Part shown: positions 10,703 to 20,465 of the stretch, in pieces
Numbering within the stretch: position 1 is the stretch's first letter
How the letters are laid out: each line of letters opens with the position of its first letter
Translations under genes and position numbers: made by a program
Notes under the pieces: generated by a model
The model's input: only the letters and a program-made list of their open reading frames with translations
Told to the model about the DNA's origin: nothing
Databases searched by the model: none
Assembly (NCBI GenBank): GCA_944322675.1
Contig: CALUPO010000012.1
Coordinates: forward strand, 1 to 64,000
Length of the DNA: 64,000 bases
Direction of reading: 5' to 3'
DNA from: Candidatus Gastranaerophilales bacterium
GTDB taxonomy: Bacteria; Cyanobacteriota; Vampirovibrionia; Gastranaerophilales; Gastranaerophilaceae

Positions 10703-12331
10703 ATGCATAACTATTTTAAAATGTATAATGCCGATAAATGTATATTTGATGCTGAAGTGTCTTGTGTTTCAGATCCTATTCAAGCATCTTTAAGAGAAAT
10801 TTTGTTGTATGAAATAAGACTTCTTGCTTATTATACATTAAAACTCAAGGAATTTAATTTTGAGTATAACAAATATGCAAAACATATTATTGATGGTGTT
10901 TGCGTTGCTTCACTTAATATGGAGATAAACAGGAATGAATTTAGTGACTATTTATTAAATTTAATTGATTTACGCTGTGTTGCCCAAAAAAATTATATTG
11001 ATTATAGCGAAAAAAATAATTTAGACCTTCAAATTTTAAAAGCATACACTGATAAATGTAGTGATTTTAATTTTATTGATGCTTTAAAGCAAGGCGAATT
11101 ACAAAATATCCAAAAAAATAAAATACTTGATAAAGATAAAAAAAGTTTATATGACATTTTATATATAATAATCCAGAATGCTTGTCGTAATATAGCCCAA
11201 ATAAACTTGTTTAAGGAAAATGAAGTTGAGTATGAAACATTTGAAATAATTAAATTAATTTCGAGCACAAATTTTAAATCAACGCAAACCGAAAAATTAA
11301 AAAATCGTATAGAAAAAGCTTCCAAGATTAATTACAACCTTTATAAAAAACTTAAAGAATTATCTTCTCAAAAATTTGGTATTCCAAAATTAAGCGAAGT
11401 TAAACTTGATTATAAAAAAGGAAAAGCTATTTTGGTAACAGGCGATTCGCTTATGGATTTATACGATTTATTAAAATATGTTGAAGGAACGGATATTAAT
11501 GTTTATACACATGATGCATTAATACTTGCTCATTGTTATGATGAATTTAAAAAATTTAAAAACCTGGTTGGACATTATCAAAAATCAATAGATAATTTAG
11601 AAATGGATTTTTCTTCATTTCCTGGTGTTATACTTATTACTCGAAATGGGAACGGTAACTATTTAAATATTATTCGTGGTTTAATTTATACAACAAATGA
11701 AATAGGCGGCAAAGGCGTTACCGTGATTAAAGATGGAAACTTTGAAAACTTAGTTAATCAAGCAAATGAAAGAATTGGGTTTAAAGAGGATAAAGAATTT
11801 GGGAAAATTCAAATCGGATATAATTTTGACGAAATAGAAATAAAAATTAATGAAATTATTGAAAAAATTAATAATAATGAAATAAAAACCCTTTATATGT
11901 TTGGTCTTTTAAATAATATTGGGGATTTAGACGAATATTTTAAGCATTTTATTGATAAAATTAACGATAACTCGTATATTATATCACTTTCATATAATGC
12001 AAATAAAGAAAATCTTTATCATATTGATTCATATTATGATTATTCTTTAACTTATAAAATACTTGAAAAACTTGAGCCTGTTTGTGTTAAAAAAAATATT
12101 CCAATAAATATTATAATGACAGAATTTAATTTAAGCTTAATTTCACGTATTTTTGACATAATAAATAATTTTCAATATGAAAATATTTATATCCCAAATA
12201 GAATAAGTGACCATGTTAATCCTCAAATAATTGAAACTTTAAGGTCAATATTTGGATTAATACTGCTAACCGGCAATGTCGGAAAAGACCTAAAAATAAT
12301 AACTTCCATAAACAAAGAAAACTCCAATTAA
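10703..12331 (+). CDS. Degenerate hybrid-cluster protein (Hcp) homologue without metal ligands
   Basis: This intact 542-residue protein follows the Hcp fold from end to end but appears unable to bind the hybrid Fe-S-O cluster. Recognisable blocks are SDPIQASLREILLYEIRLLA near the N-terminus, AILVTGDSLMDLYDLLKYVE, DINVYTHDALILAHCYDE, VGHYQKSIDN, and FPGVILITRNGNG. Known Hcp proteins have GHDL, HGE, TTNC, GGCDG, ACGK, GQCND and WYEQK at the aligned places; here the His, first Glu, all hybrid-cluster Cys and the Lys are missing. Only one Glu, and two of the four N-terminal Cys, seem kept. The long open frame argues against simple decay. Start is ATG 10703 after GGGAAG; an upstream TTG at 10679 is also open. 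Confidence 0.82.
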   Translation: MHNYFKMYNADKCIFDAEVSCVSDPIQASLREILLYEIRLLAYYTLKLKEFNFEYNKYAKHIIDGVCVASLNMEINRNEFSDYLLNLIDLRCVAQKNYIDYSEKNNLDLQILKAYTDKCSDFNFIDALKQGELQNIQKNKILDKDKKSLYDILYIIIQNACRNIAQINLFKENEVEYETFEIIKLISSTNFKSTQTEKLKNRIEKASKINYNLYKKLKELSSQKFGIPKLSEVKLDYKKGKAILVTGDSLMDLYDLLKYVEGTDINVYTHDALILAHCYDEFKKFKNLVGHYQKSIDNLEMDFSSFPGVILITRNGNGNYLNIIRGLIYTTNEIGGKGVTVIKDGNFENLVNQANERIGFKEDKEFGKIQIGYNFDEIEIKINEIIEKINNNEIKTLYMFGLLNNIGDLDEYFKHFIDKINDNSYIISLSYNANKENLYHIDSYYDYSLTYKILEKLEPVCVKKNIPINIIMTEFNLSLISRIFDIINNFQYENIYIPNRISDHVNPQIIETLRSIFGLILLTGNVGKDLKIITSINKENSN

Positions 12332-12345
12332 AATTTAATTGGAGT
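12321..12345 (+). terminator. Terminator-like hairpin at the end of the Hcp-like gene
   Basis: ACTCCAATTAAA pairs perfectly with TTTAATTGGAGT across the stop codon, followed by AATTGTTT. The tight loop and short T-run make strength uncertain. Confidence 0.5.
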
Positions 12346-12451: not shown

Positions 12452-12479
12452 TTGCATTTTTTTACAGTTAATATATAAT
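12452..12479 (+). promoter_or_regulatory. Promoter of the argF leader transcript
   Basis: TTGCAT (12452-12457), 16-nt spacer, perfect TATAAT (12474-12479). The predicted transcript start near 12486 would give a leader of about 185 nt containing a short peptide gene and a terminator before argF. Confidence 0.75.
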
Positions 12480-12509
12480 AAGAAAGTTAGCTTGTAAAAG
12501 GGTATTAAT

Positions 12510-12581
12510 TTGAAGAAAGTTGCAAATAAAATTCAATTACGACGTAGCCGCTCGAATCAAGTTTTGAATCGGGTTATTTAA
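12510..12581 (+). CDS. Arginine-rich leader peptide of argF
   Basis: A TTG-started frame of 23 codons, MKKVANKIQLRRSRSNQVLN then RVI and stop. AAAAGGG lies 7 nt before the start. Four of its residues are Arg, three of them clustered as CGA CGT AGC CGC. Placement between a promoter and a terminator upstream of an arginine gene makes it a candidate ribosome-stalling leader peptide. It is too short for routine gene calling, and its translation is not shown directly. Confidence 0.72.
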   Translation: MKKVANKIQLRRSRSNQVLNRVI

Positions 12582-12645
12582 GTTTGCAATAAAAATATAA
12601 ATTTTAAGCTGCCCTATTCAAAACATTGAATAGGGCGGCTTTTTG
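12561..12645 (+). promoter_or_regulatory. Transcription attenuator of argF (antiterminator and terminator)
   Basis: The terminator stem is GCCCTATTCA (12611-12620) with TGAATAGGGC (12627-12636), extended by AGC/GCT outside and followed by TTTTT. The leader segment GTTTTGAATCGGG (12561-12573) can instead pair with CCCTATTCAAAAC (12612-12624) with one mismatch, which would block the terminator. A ribosome stalled at the Arg codons at 12540-12551 for lack of charged arginine tRNA would leave 12561-12573 free, favouring antitermination. The pairings are read from sequence; the control model is inference from known amino-acid attenuators. Confidence 0.75.
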
Positions 12646-12670
12646 TGTATATAAAAAAAGAGGATAATAT

Positions 12671-13615
12671 ATGACAAATACTTGTAATTTAAATTTAAAA
12701 GGAAAACATTTTATTAATTTAGAAGATTTTACAGCAAATGAACTTCAATATTTGATTGAAGAAGCACAAAACTTGAAATCCAAGGTTAAAAGCAAAGAAG
12801 AAATTAATTTGTTGAAAGACAAAATTATGGTAATGTATTTTGCAAAGCCAAGTTTAAGAACAAGGTTAAGTTTTGAAATTGGTATGAAAAAATTAGGCGG
12901 TGATGCTTATGTTTTAAAGCAGGATGAAATAATTCTCGGGAAACGTGAAAGCATTGAAGATAGTGCCAATGTAATTTCTCGTTACTGTGATTTGATTATG
13001 ATAAGAACTTTTGCACATGAAGATATCGAAAACTTTGCAAAACATTCAAAAGTTCCTGTTATTAATGCTTTAACTGATTTATCCCATCCATGTCAAATTA
13101 TGGCGGATTTATTAACCATAAAAGAACATTTTGGCAAACTTGATGGATTAACTTTGTCTTATATTGGTGACGGAAATAATGTTTGCAATAGCTTGCTTAT
13201 TGGATGTTCAATGTTAGGTTTAAACATAAAAGTCGGATGTCCTAAAGGCTATGAGCCAAATAAAGACTATATTAATCTTGCAAAAGAATATGCAAAAGAA
13301 AATGGAACTTTTGTTGAGATATTAAACAATGTAAAAAATGCTTCAAGTGGTGCTGACATTTTATACACTGATGTTTGGGCTTCAATGGGGCAAGAAGATG
13401 AAAAAGAAATGCGAAAAGAAATCTTTAAGGATTATCAAATTAATAACACGTTATTAAAAAATGCAAGTGATAATGCAATAGTTCTTCACTGTCTTCCTGC
13501 ACATAAAGGTGAGGAAATAAGTGATGAAGTCTTTGATAAAAATGCTTCTATTATATATGAAGAAGCCGAAAACAGGATGTATGCCCAAATGGCAATAATG
13601 AAAAGTATAGGTTAG
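12671..13615 (+). CDS. argF: Ornithine carbamoyltransferase
   Basis: This 314-residue transferase converts ornithine and carbamoyl phosphate to citrulline. The carbamoyl-phosphate loop is PSLRTRLSFE (SxRTR form), followed by SHPCQIMADLLTI (HPCQ) and the ornithine-binding HCLPAHKGEE motif. AGAGGA lies upstream of ATG 12671. It is separate from the argGHCJBD run and is the only arg gene here with a clear leader-peptide attenuator, so its expression probably follows arginine supply. Confidence 0.97.
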   Translation: MTNTCNLNLKGKHFINLEDFTANELQYLIEEAQNLKSKVKSKEEINLLKDKIMVMYFAKPSLRTRLSFEIGMKKLGGDAYVLKQDEIILGKRESIEDSANVISRYCDLIMIRTFAHEDIENFAKHSKVPVINALTDLSHPCQIMADLLTIKEHFGKLDGLTLSYIGDGNNVCNSLLIGCSMLGLNIKVGCPKGYEPNKDYINLAKEYAKENGTFVEILNNVKNASSGADILYTDVWASMGQEDEKEMRKEIFKDYQINNTLLKNASDNAIVLHCLPAHKGEEISDEVFDKNASIIYEEAENRMYAQMAIMKSIG

Positions 13616-13700: not shown

Positions 13701-13798
13701 CCGCCTGAGGCATGCTGTCTTCACGGTGTAAAGCCATCTAGCCACGGCGGTAGATTTTCAGGCGGGGGCAGCTTCGCCGCCCCCGCCTGAAAATCTAC
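13701..13798 (+). other. GC-rich structured element between argF and argG
   Basis: A perfect 20-bp stem (13750-13769 with 13779-13798, loop AGCTTCGCC) stands out in an AT-rich region. CCGCCTGA occurs at both 13701-13708 and 13783-13790, and either can pair with TCAGGCGG at 13758-13765, so two exclusive folds are possible. It may be an RNA switch, a terminator or a palindromic repeat. There is no T-run immediately after the stem. Confidence 0.6.
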
Positions 13799-13876
13799 TC
13801 AATATGAATAATTACACTAAATTAAAATAAAAAAAGAAAGGAATAAAACGTTAAAAACCACAATAAAATAACAAAA

Positions 13877-13943: not shown

Positions 13944-15161
13944 ATGAAAAAGAAAGTAGTATTGGCATACTCAGGCGGACTTGATACAACAGTTATTATC
14001 CCGTGGTTAAAAGAAAACTATGATTATGATGTAATAGCAGCTTGTATTGATGTTGGTCAAGGCACAGAAACAGATGGATTAGAAGAAAAAGCCTTGAAAA
14101 CAGGAGCTATAAAGTATTATTTAATAAATTGTGAAGACGAATTTGTTGAAGATTATATTTATCCTACATTAAAAGCTGATGCGATATATGAAGGTAAGTA
14201 TTTGCTTGGGACTTCAATTGCTCGTCCAATTATTACCAAAAAGCTTGTTGAAATAGCAATAAACGAAGGTGCAAGTGCGATATGTCATGGTGCGACAGGG
14301 AAAGGCAATGATCAAGTGAGATTTGAATTAAGCATAAAAGCACTTGCACCACATCTTGAAATTATTGCACCGTGGAGGATTTGGGATATTCAATCACGTG
14401 AAGATGAAATAAAATATTTAGAAGATCGAAATATTCCCGTTCCAATGAAAAAAGATGATACATATTCTAGGGATAAAAACTTGTGGCATTTATCACATGA
14501 AGGGCTTGAACTTGAAGACCCCAAAAATCCTCCAAATTATGAAAAACTTTTAAAAATGTCTAATACGCTTGAAAATGCACCAAACGAGCCACAGTTTATT
14601 GAAATAGAATTTGAAAAAGGAATACCTGTTTGTGTTGATGGTAAAAAATTTAGTCCTTCAAATCTGGTTAAATATTTAAATGAAATTGGTGGAAAACATG
14701 CAATAGGAATAATTGATATAGTTGAAAATCGTGTTGTCGGGATGAAATCACGTGGAGTTTATGAGACACCCGGAGGTACTATTTTATATGCTGCTCATAA
14801 GGAACTTGAGTATTTATGTTTGGATAAGCAAACTTTATCGTTTAAATCAATTGTTGCAAATAAGTTTGCAGAACTTGTCTATAGCGGTGAATGGTTCACA
14901 CCATTGAGAGAAGCTTTAAGTTCATTTGTCGACAAAACACAAGAAACAGTAACAGGGAAAGTTTCACTAAAATTGTATAAGGGAAATATTATACCAAACG
15001 GTGCAAGTTCACCATATTCTTTATATAGCGAAAGCCTTGCAAGTTTTACAACAGGTGAATTATACAACCACAAAGATGCAGAAGGATTTATCAACTTATT
15101 TGGATTACCATTAAAGGTTAATGCTTTAATGAAACAAAAAAATAATTGTGAGGTGAAATAA
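13944..15161 (+). CDS. argG: Argininosuccinate synthase
   Basis: This ATP-dependent ligase joins citrulline and aspartate to argininosuccinate. The 405-residue protein begins [20 protein letters not shown], the PP-loop nucleotide site, and has [13 protein letters not shown] and APWR typical of the family. ATG 13944 is preceded by AAAGGAATAAAAATT; the frame is open to 13884, but the 20 extra residues are not family-like and run through the promoter region. It begins the argG-argH-argC-argJ run, with the argH start only 5 nt after its stop. Confidence 0.97.
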
Positions 15162-15166
15162 TAGAA

Positions 15167-16567
15167 ATGGGAAAACAACTTTGGGGGGCAAGATTTTCAA
15201 AATCATTAGCAAAAGAAGCAAATGATTTTAATTCTTCACTTCATTTTGATAGTGTTATGTTTGAAGAAGATATTTTAGGTAGCATTGCACACGCAACAAT
15301 GCTTGGAGAAACAAATATAATTTCAAAAGAAGAAAGTCAAAAAATATCAAACGGATTAAAAGAAATTTTAGAAGATATAAAACAAGGTAAGCTGCAGTTT
15401 GATTATAATTTAGAAGACATCCATACGCAAGTTGAAAAATGGCTTATTGATAAAATTGGTGAAACAGGGAAAAAAGTCCATACAGGAAGAAGTCGCAATG
15501 ATCAGGTGGCACTCGATTTAAGAATGTATTTAAAAAAAGAAGTTAAAAATATAAAAACTTTATTGCTTAATGTATTAAAAACCCTTATAAATCTTCAAAA
15601 AAAACACACAAAAACATATTTAAGCGGCTATACTCATCTTCAAAGAGCACAGGTTATTACTTTTGCACATTATTTAGGTGCATATGTTGAAATGTTTAAA
15701 CGTGATGTTGAAAGACTTGAAAATGCTTTTGAACGCATTGATACAATGCCTTTGGGAGCTGGTGCTTTGGCTTGTTCTACTTATAATATTGACAATAAAA
15801 TGACAGCTCAACTTTTGAAATTTAAACATGTAATGATAAATTCCCTTGATGCTGTTTCTGATAGAGATTTTGTAATTGAGATGGGGGCATGTTTATCAAT
15901 TATTATGATGCATTTAAGTCGCTTTGCTGAAGAACTTGTTTTGTATACAACCTCAGAATTTAAATTTGTTGAATTTGACGATGGATTTACAACAGGCTCA
16001 AGTTTGATGCCACAAAAGAAAAACCCTGATATCCTTGAACTCATCCGTGGAAAAACAGGTCGGGTTTATGGCAATTTGTTTTCGATTTTAACCATTATGA
16101 AATCACTGCCTTTAGCTTATAATAAAGATATGCAGGAAGATAAAGAGGGAATTTTTGACTCAATTAAAACTGTCAAAGATTGTTTAGCAATTTTGCCTCA
16201 AGTTTTAACAACAATGAAAATTAATACAGATAAAATGCTTTTATCTGTAAATGAAGGGTTTTTAAATGCAACAGAAGTTGCTGATTATTTGGTAAAGAAA
16301 GGTGTTCCGTTTCGTGATGCACACGGAATTTCAGGAAAGCTCGTTGTATATTGCATAAATAACAATAAAAACTTAACAACGCTAACATTAAACGAATACA
16401 AAAAAGAATCATCACTATTTGAAGAAGACATTTATCAAAAAATAACACCTGAAGCACAGGTCAATAATAAAACAATTGTGGGAAGTCCAAGTGAAAACTC
16501 TGTTCTTGAAGTTATAAAAATAAACGAAAAATGGTTAGAAAAAAAGGAAAAAAATAACAATGATTAA
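15167..16567 (+). CDS. argH: Argininosuccinate lyase
   Basis: The 466-residue lyase releases arginine and fumarate from argininosuccinate, the last step of arginine synthesis. Signature GSSLMPQKKNPDILELIRGK is present, along with HTGRSRNDQVALDLRMYL and SGYTHLQRAQ. Its likely ribosome-binding site GAGGTG lies in the final codons of argG. The last 8 nt overlap the start of argC, implying coupled translation. The Lys/Asn-rich tail (KEKNNND) is a small lineage extension. Confidence 0.97.
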   Translation: MGKQLWGARFSKSLAKEANDFNSSLHFDSVMFEEDILGSIAHATMLGETNIISKEESQKISNGLKEILEDIKQGKLQFDYNLEDIHTQVEKWLIDKIGETGKKVHTGRSRNDQVALDLRMYLKKEVKNIKTLLLNVLKTLINLQKKHTKTYLSGYTHLQRAQVITFAHYLGAYVEMFKRDVERLENAFERIDTMPLGAGALACSTYNIDNKMTAQLLKFKHVMINSLDAVSDRDFVIEMGACLSIIMMHLSRFAEELVLYTTSEFKFVEFDDGFTTGSSLMPQKKNPDILELIRGKTGRVYGNLFSILTIMKSLPLAYNKDMQEDKEGIFDSIKTVKDCLAILPQVLTTMKINTDKMLLSVNEGFLNATEVADYLVKKGVPFRDAHGISGKLVVYCINNNKNLTTLTLNEYKKESSLFEEDIYQKITPEAQVNNKTIVGSPSENSVLEVIKINEKWLEKKEKNNND

Positions 16568-17585
16568 AGCAGCAATTATAGGCGCAACAGGTTATACTGG
16601 AATAACATTAATGGATATTTTGTTAAAACATAAAGATGTTGAAATAAAATATATCACCTCGAAAAGTTATGCAGGGGAAAAGTTTTCGCAAATATATCCT
16701 AAGTTTGAAAGCATTACAGATCTTGTTTGCATTGAAGAAAATATAAATGAAATATCAAAAAATGTCGATGTAATATTTATGGCATTGCCTCATGGGATAG
16801 CAAGTGGAAAGATAAATAATGATATTTTAAAACGAACAAAAGTTATAGACCTTGGAGCTGATTTCAGACTAAAAGATAAAAACACTTATGAAACTTGGTA
16901 TCAAGTTGAGCATAAAACACCAGAATTGCTTAATGATTCTGTTTACGGATTATGTGAATTAAATCGGGAAAAGATTAAAGAAGCAAAATTAATTGCAAAT
17001 CCAGGTTGTTATACAACAGCTAGTATCTTAGCTTTAAGTCCTTTGGTTAAACATCAACTTATTGAAACAAGTAGTATTATTATTGATGCAAAATCAGGTA
17101 TAAGTGGTGCAGGTAGAAGTTTAAATATTCAAAATTTATATTGTGAGGCAAATGAAACAATTAAAGCATACAAAGTCGGTTCTCATCGTCATACGGTTGA
17201 AATAGAACAAGAACTTTCAATATTAAATCATAACAACAAAATTAATTTGACGTTCACTCCACATTTGACACCAATGAACCGTGGAATACTTGCAACTTGC
17301 TATTCTAAAGCGAAAAATCAAGTTAAGTATGAAGAATTAATAAATTTATACAAAACTTTTTACAAAAACGAATTTTTTATAAGAATAAAGAATAGTGCAA
17401 ACGATGTTGAAACTAAATTTGTTACAAATTCAAATTTTGTCGACATTGGAATTTCGTATGATAAAAGAACAAATAACATTATTGTCACAAGTGCTATAGA
17501 CAATTTGATAAAAGGGGCATCAGGTCAAGCTGTCCAGAATATGAATATAATGTTTAATTTAGATGAAAGTGAAGGGTTAAAATAA
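16560..17585 (+). CDS. argC: N-acetyl-gamma-glutamyl-phosphate reductase
   Basis: NADPH-dependent reduction of N-acetylglutamyl phosphate to the semialdehyde. The 341-residue protein has an N-terminal dinucleotide fold (IIGATGYTGITLMDILL), the catalytic cysteine in LIANPGCYTTAS, and the GSHRHTVEIEQEL segment with the catalytic His. Its ATG lies within the argH stop (ATGATTAA), and argJ starts 4 nt after its end. Confidence 0.97.
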   Translation: MIKAAIIGATGYTGITLMDILLKHKDVEIKYITSKSYAGEKFSQIYPKFESITDLVCIEENINEISKNVDVIFMALPHGIASGKINNDILKRTKVIDLGADFRLKDKNTYETWYQVEHKTPELLNDSVYGLCELNREKIKEAKLIANPGCYTTASILALSPLVKHQLIETSSIIIDAKSGISGAGRSLNIQNLYCEANETIKAYKVGSHRHTVEIEQELSILNHNNKINLTFTPHLTPMNRGILATCYSKAKNQVKYEELINLYKTFYKNEFFIRIKNSANDVETKFVTNSNFVDIGISYDKRTNNIIVTSAIDNLIKGASGQAVQNMNIMFNLDESEGLK

Positions 17586-17589
17586 AAAT

Positions 17590-18822
17590 ATGGAAGTAAT
17601 CAAAGATGGTGGAATTACAACACCAAAAGGTTTTAAAGCAGCAGGAATACATTGTGGAATAAAGAAGAGAAAGAAAGATTTAGCGATTATCACAAGTGAG
17701 AAAGAATCATTATGTTATGCTTGTTTCACTCAGAATACTATGAAAGCAGCACCTTTAAAAATTTGTGAAGAAAATTTAAAATCTTCAAATAACCAAATAA
17801 AAGCTATTATTATAAATAGTGGCAATGCAAACGCTTGTACTGGTGATAGAGGATATCAAGATGCAAAACTTATGACAAAAACATTGGCAAAATGCTTAAA
17901 TATTGAAGTAAGTAAAACGCTTGTAAGTTCAACTGGTGTTATAGGAGCATATTTACCTATAGAAAATATTCTTGACGGGATTGAAAATATCGTTAAGGAA
18001 ATAAGTGAAGACACAAAAAATGCAAAAGATTGTGCAGAAGCAATTATGACGACTGACACTTTTATTAAAGAAATAGCTGTTAAAATAAAACTAAAAGATG
18101 ATGCCATTATTAAAATTGGTGGTATATCAAAAGGTTCAGGAATGATACACCCGAATATGGCAACAATGCTAGGGTTTATAACAACCGATTGCAATATTTC
18201 AAAAAAGCTTCTTGAAAAAGCTTTCAAAGAATGTATCGATTCAAGTTTTAATATGATATCGGTTGACGGAGAAACTTCCACAAATGATATGGCTGTTATA
18301 ATGGCTAATGGTGAAGCTTCAAACAATAAAATTGAAAAAGAAGATGAAAATTATAAATTGTTTAAAACAGCTTTGATGTTTGTTTGTTCATCTTTAGCCA
18401 AAATGATTGTTAAAGATGGTGAGGGGGCAACAAAATTTTTAGAAGTTAATATTAAAAATGCAAAAAACAAAAACGAAGCAAAGATTTTATGCAAATCAAT
18501 AATTAATTCAAATCTTGTTAAAACTGCCTTTTTTGGTTGCGATGCAAATTGGGGGAGGATATTATCGGCTATGGGCTCAACCGGTGTTAAATTTGACCAA
18601 AATAAAATAACAATAAGTTTTTGTAACAATGCGGGTGATATAGTTTTATTCCAAAACGGAGAACCATTAAATTTTGATGAAAAACTTGCACTAAAAATAT
18701 TGAAAGAAAAAGAAATAATAATAAATGTAAATTTAAATCAGGGTAATGAAGAAAATGTTCAAGGATGGGGGTGTGATTTAAGTTATGAATATGTAAAAAT
18801 AAATGCAGATTATAGGACATAA
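17590..18822 (+). CDS. argJ: Ornithine acetyltransferase/N-acetylglutamate synthase
   Basis: ArgJ recycles the acetyl group from N-acetylornithine to glutamate and may also use acetyl-CoA. The 410-residue proenzyme has GGITTPKGFKAAGIHCGIK at the start and the self-cleavage site in MIHPNMATMLGF, where the Thr becomes the catalytic N-terminus of the beta chain. NSGNANACTG and the near-C-terminal region GCDANWGRILSAMG are typical. A bifunctional ArgJ would make argA/argE unnecessary, consistent with neither being seen here. It ends at a GC-rich repeat island. Confidence 0.96.
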   Translation: MEVIKDGGITTPKGFKAAGIHCGIKKRKKDLAIITSEKESLCYACFTQNTMKAAPLKICEENLKSSNNQIKAIIINSGNANACTGDRGYQDAKLMTKTLAKCLNIEVSKTLVSSTGVIGAYLPIENILDGIENIVKEISEDTKNAKDCAEAIMTTDTFIKEIAVKIKLKDDAIIKIGGISKGSGMIHPNMATMLGFITTDCNISKKLLEKAFKECIDSSFNMISVDGETSTNDMAVIMANGEASNNKIEKEDENYKLFKTALMFVCSSLAKMIVKDGEGATKFLEVNIKNAKNKNEAKILCKSIINSNLVKTAFFGCDANWGRILSAMGSTGVKFDQNKITISFCNNAGDIVLFQNGEPLNFDEKLALKILKEKEIIINVNLNQGNEENVQGWGCDLSYEYVKINADYRT

Positions 18823-19610
18823 GGGTTGTTTAATGAAAGCAAAAAAACATGTTTGTTTCGCCGCAATAAATTGCGAAATATATTTAATTAATATATTTAA
18901 TGTCCTCCGGACGGGGCTAACTGTCTTGGATTTGCTCCAAGCTCACAGAGCCTTACCTTTTGCCCTTTGGGCAAGTCGGTGCGGTCTGTTTGCTATGTGG
19001 ATTCACTTCGCTCCATCCGTATGCAAATCCGCTTGTGTGGACAAAGCAGATTTCACTCTATCGAGTGCCCTCCTTGTATGGCTCAACTTCGTTTCGTCTA
19101 CAAGAGGAGCTGTTGGTAGGGCAAAGCCCCGGAGAGCGAAAAAAGCGTAATTCATTAGTTGGACTTCAACGCAACAATCGGGGGAATGCGTGAAAAGCGT
19201 AAGCCGTGCGAAGTTTTAGACGAGGAAGCGACCCAGCTTTCGAGTATAAAGGAAGCAGTTAATGACCGCCCATAGGACAAACGCCCGAATGTAATGAGGG
19301 CGGATACCACAGGCGGGAAAAAGCCGGAGCCGGCAGCACGAAATGCGACAGGCGAAGTGCTTTGAGCTTGAAGGAAATTCAAGACAGCACTGCTTATTCC
19401 AAGCTGCGTATGGATTGAAAATGTTAACTTCATCCCACAAATATTCACAACAAATTAAACAACTCCACAGGGGTTGTATGGGGGGGGGTGGCTTTACCGC
19501 CTCCTAAATAAACTATTTTGGTGAAACAAAGGTTTGATGCAAAAAACAAAAATCGTGCTAGTTTCGCCCCTACCAACGTAAAACAAAAAAAGAAAGGATA
19601 CACACTAAAT
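18823..19610. other. GC-rich repeat island splitting the arg operon
   Basis: This 788-bp gap has base composition very unlike its surroundings and no convincing gene. It contains GTCCTCCGGAC followed by GGGG (18902 on), small palindromes such as TGCCCTTTGGGCA, a 113-bp segment repeated at 41443-41555, and at about 19514-19572 a degenerate reverse-oriented copy of the GGGGCGAAAC...GTTTCGCC repeat seen at 50.5 kb. I looked for RNase P RNA, tmRNA and SRP RNA hallmarks and found none. Frames crossing it are repeat translations. Confidence 0.7.
19273..19385. repeat. Dispersed 113-bp repeat, copy 1
   Basis: Starts TAGGACAAACGCCCGAAT and ends GAAGGAAATTCAAGA. It aligns over its whole length with 41443-41555, with scattered substitutions and a one-base length change in an A-run. 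It includes GCCGGAGCCGGC, able to form a short stem. Confidence 0.85.
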
Positions 19611-20465
19611 ATGCAAAAATATATTGAAAAAGCAGATATATTAATCGAAGCTTTACCATATATTCAAAAATTTAACGGTTCAGTTGTTGTTATAAAATAT
19701 GGCGGTTCAGCAATGATTGATGAAAAAATAAAACAATCTGTTATTGGTGATATTTCATTTATGAAAATGGTTGGGATAAAACCTATTGTTGTGCATGGAG
19801 GTGGGCCTTTTATAAACAAAGCATTAAAAAAATTAAATATAAATCCACAATTTAAAAACGGCTTACGAGTAACAGATGAAAATACAGTTAAAATAGTTGA
19901 AACGACCCTTTCTGGAGAAGTAAATAAATCCATTGTTTCGGATTTTCAAAAACAAGGAATGCAAGCTTGTGGTATTTCGGGTAAAGACTGTAAACTGATT
20001 GTAGCTAAAAAAAGTGATGAAAATATAGGTTTTGTTGGTGAAATAGAAAAAATAAACCCAAAAATCATTAATACACTTATTGATAATGATTTTGTTCCGG
20101 TCGTTTCTCCAATTGGCACAGACGAAAATGGTAATACTTATAATATTAATGCAGATTATGTCGCAAATGAACTTGCTATAGCTTTAAGAGCTAATAAACT
20201 TGTATTTATGACAGATATTGACGGATTACTTGAAGATGAAAATGATAAAAAAACACTAATTTCAAAAATAAATGTAAAAACAATAGAGAAAATGATTGAA
20301 GAAGACAAAATTAAAGGCGGAATGCTTCCCAAAATAAACAGCTGTAAAAAAGCGGTTGAAAATGGCGTAAAATCCGTACACATAATTAACGGCAACATAA
20401 AACACGCACTTCTTCTTGAAATTTATACAAATCAAGGCATTGGAACAATAATCGAAAGGAATTAA
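19611..20465 (+). CDS. argB: Acetylglutamate kinase
   Basis: Phosphorylates N-acetylglutamate, usually the arginine-feedback step. The 284-residue protein has VVIKYGGSAM and VHGGGPFINKALKKL nucleotide/substrate loops, NGLRVTDENTV, and NINADYVANELAIALRANKL. MQKYIEKADILIEALPYIQK matches the N-terminal helix found in arginine-sensitive kinases, so feedback inhibition is plausible. The frame is open from 19518 through repeat sequence; ATG 19611 after AAAGGA is chosen. argD follows 4 nt after the stop. Confidence 0.96.
   Translation: MQKYIEKADILIEALPYIQKFNGSVVVIKYGGSAMIDEKIKQSVIGDISFMKMVGIKPIVVHGGGPFINKALKKLNINPQFKNGLRVTDENTVKIVETTLSGEVNKSIVSDFQKQGMQACGISGKDCKLIVAKKSDENIGFVGEIEKINPKIINTLIDNDFVPVVSPIGTDENGNTYNINADYVANELAIALRANKLVFMTDIDGLLEDENDKKTLISKINVKTIEKMIEEDKIKGGMLPKINSCKKAVENGVKSVHIINGNIKHALLLEIYTNQGIGTIIERN

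Follow-up and report, generated by a model that had tools for sequence, protein, structure and literature searches.

Organization of the argF leader and the arg cluster

The window (the whole 64,000-nucleotide stretch of DNA that was analysed) carries argF, encoding ornithine carbamoyltransferase, followed on the same strand by argG, argH, argC, argJ and argB. Immediately upstream of argF, at 12452-12670, a promoter, a short reading frame containing clustered Arg codons and an intrinsic terminator lie in close succession:

12452-12479, forward strand: promoter, with -35 box TTGCAT at 12452-12457, a 16-nt spacer and -10 box TATAAT at 12474-12479
12496-12502, forward strand: leader Shine-Dalgarno sequence AAAAGGG
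12510-12581, forward strand: leader peptide MKKVANKIQLRRSRSNQVLNRVI, 23 codons, TTG start at 12510 and stop TAA at 12579-12581
12540-12545, forward strand: core tandem Arg codons CGA CGT, the predicted stall site
12550-12574, forward strand: 1:2 hairpin (anti-antiterminator) of the minimum-energy fold, which a ribosome at the core Arg codons would disrupt
12561-12573, forward strand: region 2, predicted left arm of the antiterminator, GTTTTGAATCGGG
12612-12624, forward strand: region 3, predicted right arm of the antiterminator, CCCTATTCAAAAC, shared with the 5' arm of the terminator
12606-12644, forward strand: predicted intrinsic terminator, stem 12606-12641 with 16 pairs, U-run 12640-12644
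12660-12664, forward strand: argF Shine-Dalgarno sequence GAGGA, outside the terminator and 3' of it
12671-13615, forward strand: argF, ATG at 12671 (TIGR00658, 418.6 bits against a cut-off of 280.85; NF001986, 427 bits against a cut-off of 306)
13944-20465, forward strand: argG, argH, argC, argJ and argB, all NCBIfam equivalogs above cut-off; the argG start is approximate

The original prediction had described a promoter, the AAAAGGG motif, a 23-codon frame with Arg codons, an alternative pairing and a strong terminator in the classical order, and each of these elements is found where it had been placed. The -35 box is weak relative to the E. coli consensus and was not listed by the promoter scan; boxes resembling TTGCA(A/T)-17-TATAAT recur at the equivalent position upstream of argF-type leaders in relatives, and a motif of the AAGG/GGA type lies ahead of nearly all relatives' leaders. 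At the level of sequence, the locus has the short translatable leader frame and ribosome-binding site expected of an attenuator, with Arg codons CGA at 12540, CGT at 12543, CGC at 12549 and CGG at 12570. Region 2 is computed to pair with region 3 as an alternative to both the 1:2 and the 3:4 (terminator) pairings, such that 1:2, 2:3 and 3:4 are mutually exclusive in the window leader. The terminator has a calculated energy of about -25 kcal/mol and a tail of only U5.

Two compositional irregularities lie further downstream. A G+C-rich inverted repeat (GGTAGATTTTCAGGCGGGGGC / GCCCCCGCCTGAAAATCTACT) occupies 13749-13799, between argF and argG, and may represent a terminator or else a small mobile element. 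Between argJ and argB, the stretch 18900-19499 reaches about 50% G+C within a window of 29% G+C, and is possibly an insertion parting argB from the operon. Statements below that involve argGHCJB are conditional on their co-transcription with argF, whose strand they share.

Distribution of the leader among relatives

Judged by its nearest named relatives, which are Candidatus Gastranaerophilales MAGs and Candidatus Adamsella avium if two Brachyspira-labelled MAGs are set aside, the host is a gut bacterium of the order Gastranaerophilales, placed in the Melainabacteria, a sister group of cyanobacteria. Few genomes of the order encode ArgF (33 of 383 sampled, E <= 1e-60). Within the window's family, an Arg leader was found in 21 of the 22 sampled genomes with ArgF at the same threshold, and in the remaining genome, G080, the contig stops about 100 bases upstream of argF; counted over family genomes with both ArgF and an assembled operon head, the leader is present in 21 of 21. 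Adamsella avium, from a sister family, also has an Arg leader, and in its leader and those of the 21 genomes the core Arg pair is located near codons 11-13. Loss of the Arg codons or of the alternative pairing in relatives had been named in the original prediction as evidence that would speak against it; the relatives have both, with different sequences.

The argF-type leader peptides include ...QLRRSRS..., ...ELRRQGLR, ...QIRRQDRNF, ...QLRRSIL, ...EIRRGIH, ...QARRSIP..., ...ELRRRNLF and ...ELRQSRF..., and the argC-type leader peptide, which occurs where argF comes later in the operon, reads ...[IL]RRRLIRxESY. The leader mostly lies at the front of the arg cluster, ahead of its first gene; in G087 it lies at the end of one contig and argF at the end of another. 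Because it stands before argF or argC, whichever is first, the leader appears to be tied to the operon head and not to one gene.

No recognisable leader precedes argF in families f2, f3 and f4 of the order, where operon heads are not all assembled, and none was found in the Brachyspira MAGs that carry a close ArgF. The ArgF of these two MAGs (L052, L053) is 72-73% identical to that of the window, closer than most Gastranaerophilales sequences; misbinning of contigs or horizontal transfer may account for this. Genome G059 lacks a full ArgF, and there a similar leader (MKKSIFTIQFRRSIR) with a degenerate terminator sits directly before argG (L211:1500-1760), perhaps an attenuator decaying after argF loss. 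Our sequence-only leader model (R1) loses specificity above about E 1e-5, and its weaker matches look mostly like noise.

Departure from chance expectation

The leader RNA folds with a z-score of -3.96, a value for which none of 200 shuffles was as good, and the number of terminator-like sites expected by chance is 0.0. Finding at least four CGN codons in 22 has a chance probability of about 2e-4, the window antiterminator lies at z of about -3.3 relative to shuffles, and a scan of the regions upstream of 188 open reading frames of the same genome returned the argF leader as its sole match. The estimates for the fold, the codons, the antiterminator and the upstream scan oppose the explanation that the terminator merely closes the transcript of the upstream gene and that the Arg cluster is accidental. 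A hydroxylamine-reductase-like gene does end at 12331 on the same strand, but it has a hairpin of its own at 12321-12345, and the promoter and leader sit between this gene and the terminator. Moreover, the arrangement is kept in every testable relative, a conservation that refutes the explanation, and we consider its probability negligible.

Modelled antiterminator formation and covariation

We modelled antiterminator formation in 17 leaders, ten argF-type and seven argC-type, that were chosen by Arg codons and position and not by energies. The quantity calculated is the energy gained when the 5' arm of the terminator pairs upstream before its 3' arm exists, in each of three ribosome states: untranslated, stalled with the A site on the first core Arg codon (RNA free from +13), and ribosome at the stop codon. 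Both the ribosome edge (+13) and the nearest-neighbour energies are assumptions. The modelled antiterminator ranges from -4.3 to -19.8 kcal/mol in the stalled state, from 0 to -6.1 at the stop and from 0 to -7.4 when untranslated, and each of the 17 leaders has its strongest antiterminator in the stalled state. Values for the window are -11.9 kcal/mol stalled (-15.6 at the second codon), 0.0 at the stop and -4.6 untranslated. Scanning the A site along each leader in one-codon steps places the antiterminator maximum at the core Arg codons for 16 of the 17; the exception is G026, where the maximum falls one codon beyond the second Arg. As computed, a stall at the regulatory codons frees the antiterminator and a ribosome at the stop codon does not, which is the behaviour expected of an attenuator. 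The terminators of G129 and G125, which were assigned by hand, are weak (-6.5 kcal/mol).

Relative to dinucleotide shuffles of the segment from stall site to terminator, the mean z-score is -4.3 for the argF type (n = 10, all p <= 0.013) and -1.8 for the argC type (n = 7, of which two or three miss p = 0.05). The pairing is kept despite sequence change, with GTTTTGAATcGGG/CCCtATTCAAAAC in the window, AGATAAGGTCTTTT/AAAAGACCTTATCT in G147, CGAATGcGGT/ACCcATTCG in G129 and ATATCGAATGcGG/CCcATTCGATAT in G346; hairpins analogous to 1:2 are likewise found in relatives (for example GCATTC...GAATGC and AAGACC...GGTCTT). When regions 2 and 3 of argF-type leaders were swapped across species, none of 20,000 permutations matched the true pairing. 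The argC-type leaders are near-identical and show no covariation, and the corresponding permutation test was not significant for them. Covariation of the leader, proposed at the outset as a check, is thus borne out in the argF-type group only. RNAalifold returned no common structure from the leader alignment, because helix sequence and register vary from leader to leader, and for the same reason we relied on per-leader energies, A-site scans and arm-swap permutations in place of a structured covariance model.

Codon choice in the leader core and tRNA-Arg

Every one of the 41 core Arg codons of these 17 leaders is CGN (21 CGC, 12 CGA and 8 CGT), although the leaders are related and these counts are therefore not independent. 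Across 170 open reading frames of the window's genome, AGA is the commonest Arg codon (40%) and CGC accounts for 5%. The tRNA-Arg anticodons of this genome are UCU, CCU, CCG and ACG. The gene for tRNA-Arg(ACG) (G000:C17:31471-31531; L182:172-232) escaped ARAGORN and was instead recognised in the Infernal alignment, with a score of only 37 bits and an unusual-looking D arm. Because the core uses only CGA, CGC and CGT, and tRNA-Arg(ACG) reads all three, one tRNA serves the leader core. General theory of attenuator codons suggests that this would be the most starvation-sensitive isoacceptor.

A second group of leaders ahead of an A3-family gene

The Arg-leader model also matched two relatives that lack ArgF, G099 and G011, in which the leader is followed by a terminator and has a predicted stall-specific antiterminator (z = -7.0 and -5.5). 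Both leaders precede a protein of about 350-440 residues (A3 family) for which there is no Pfam match, and whose gene occurs in 151 of the 191 family genomes. Among 70 regions upstream of A3-family genes (L231-L300), 22 contain an Arg-pair leader and then a terminator, all 22 with a stall-specific antiterminator, while the same criteria selected 0 of 187 upstream regions of the window's own genome besides that of argF. The leaders at L277 and L279 may be false. Leaders of this group include MTKQLRRSRRNQKGLF, MKFQIRRSKRNFKKGLF and MQKQLRRSANIF, at loci such as L213 and L210 (both minus strand). The window's own genome has an A3-family gene, and no Arg leader was found ahead of it.

In most genomes examined, a conserved short open reading frame ending in ...KANAPIVKLMNLIWGL or similar is also present just upstream of the A3-family gene. 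This micro-ORF mostly starts with Arg-Arg; the copy in the window's genome (L302, minus strand, 1395-1478) is without the Arg pair. That the A3-family gene has a role in arginine supply is speculation on our part.

Interpretation of the argF leader

We judge, at a probability of about 90%, that the argF leader is a classical ribosome-mediated transcription attenuator sensing the charging of tRNA-Arg. With plentiful arginine, the translating ribosome would clear the tandem CGN codons and reach the stop codon just past region 2; by masking region 2 it would allow the 3:4 terminator to form and halt transcription before argF. With charged tRNA-Arg scarce, the ribosome would stall with its A site on CGA or CGT and cover region 1, so that region 2 would be freed to pair with region 3 and the terminator would be prevented. 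Read-through would then allow argF to be made, along with argGHCJB if these are co-transcribed. If the leader is not translated, 1:2 is expected to form and the terminator would win again. Termination, read-through and the identity of arginine as the signal within the cell are what we infer from this arrangement.

ArgR (PF01316) was not found in the window's genome, which is 99.45% complete, nor above cut-off in 191 sampled genomes of the family or in 17 further genomes of the order, and the same search was positive in nine control genomes (E. coli, B. subtilis and seven others). An Rfam search of the window returned no riboswitch and no T-box. Because neither ArgR nor an Rfam riboswitch or T-box is detected, the usual alternatives drop out. 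However, in other families of the order arg genes occur with neither ArgR nor any leader that we could find, so the absence of ArgR need not by itself require attenuation.

Alternative explanations can be set against these data. A switch acting at the RNA level, with terminator and antiterminator, could in principle be driven by an arginine-binding riboswitch or by a T-box, the small reading frame being incidental, and arginine T-boxes are known elsewhere (PMC1262725). We regard this as highly improbable, since Rfam finds nothing in the window, no RNA structure is conserved across the leaders, which share little sequence beyond the start region and the CGN codons, and modelled antiterminator formation tracks the position of the ribosome. 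More deserving of attention, though still unlikely, is the possibility that a nascent [Leu/Ile]-Arg-Arg peptide senses arginine or ornithine in the manner of SpeFL or the fungal arginine attenuator peptide, instead of or together with tRNA charging. Leu or Ile precedes the first core Arg in 31 of 38 leaders by way of eight different codons, and the same Leu is encoded by CTA, TTG and CTT in the close relatives G166, G065 and G337; in Salmonella, speF orf34 carries its two Arg codons at positions 12-13 within a conserved HIRRT core (PMC6386406). By contrast, the peptides are not conserved between genera beyond [LI]RR, one leader carries Arg-Gln, in another the residue ahead of the pair is Ala, the leader peptides (very short queries) have no Pfam match, and the leader geometry works with simple stalling.

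Taken together with the A3-family leaders, attenuation at argF raises a broader scenario, which we offer tentatively and regard as doubtful. An Arg-attenuation regulon may replace ArgR in Gastranaerophilales, acting on arginine synthesis or, in genomes without ArgF, on the A3-family gene with its conserved micro-ORF, with the [Leu/Ile]-Arg-Arg chain perhaps helping to set the stall as a mixed sensor of tRNA charge and arrest peptide.

Comparison with known systems

The trp, his, leu, ilv, thr and phe operons are the textbook cases of ribosome-mediated attenuation, whereas control of arginine synthesis has been ascribed to ArgR or, at the RNA level, to T-boxes. The argF leader shares with the trp, his, leu, thr and phe attenuators its clustered regulatory codons in a leader reading frame, three exclusive pairings, an intrinsic terminator, a biosynthetic operon downstream and predicted termination when untranslated. 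It differs from them in that the amino acid is arginine, the core codons are those of one isoacceptor, and the host belongs to the Melainabacteria. ArgR also shuts off arginine synthesis when arginine is plentiful, but is a DNA-binding protein. The fungal arginine attenuator peptide is encoded by an Arg-responsive upstream open reading frame of an arginine-pathway gene; it differs in being eukaryotic, in stalling at high arginine, and in acting on translation with no transcription terminator.

Arginine T-boxes likewise link tRNA-Arg charging to transcription, but they do so by direct tRNA binding through a conserved RNA, with no leader peptide. A survey of Actinobacteria saw no RNA structures ahead of arginine operons and listed T-boxes as the RNA-level control of arginine genes (PMC1262725). 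In Salmonella, the consecutive Arg codons 12-13 of speF orf34 (SpeFL) sense arginine through ribosome pausing and alternative folds, with control exerted by Rho, by RNase G and by hiding the ribosome-binding site (PMC6386406). That system governs polyamine synthesis, whereas here an intrinsic terminator would govern arginine synthesis, and the Pfam family of SpeFL/orf34 gave no match to our leaders, which are very short queries. A literature search that covered few subscription journals found no earlier report of leader-peptide attenuation of arginine biosynthesis, in agreement with the remark in the original prediction that Arg attenuation would be unusual.

As far as we have checked, the argF leader represents a known mechanism that is new for the arginine pathway and for Gastranaerophilales. 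A conserved arginine attenuator in a lineage devoid of ArgR would indicate that attenuation can take over the arginine pathway, and the use of codons read by a single tRNA-Arg at the predicted stall site provides a natural test of whether attenuators choose the starvation-sensitive isoacceptor. The presence of a similar device before the widespread A3-family gene, in an order where most sampled genomes lack ArgF, hints that this gene might contribute to arginine supply.
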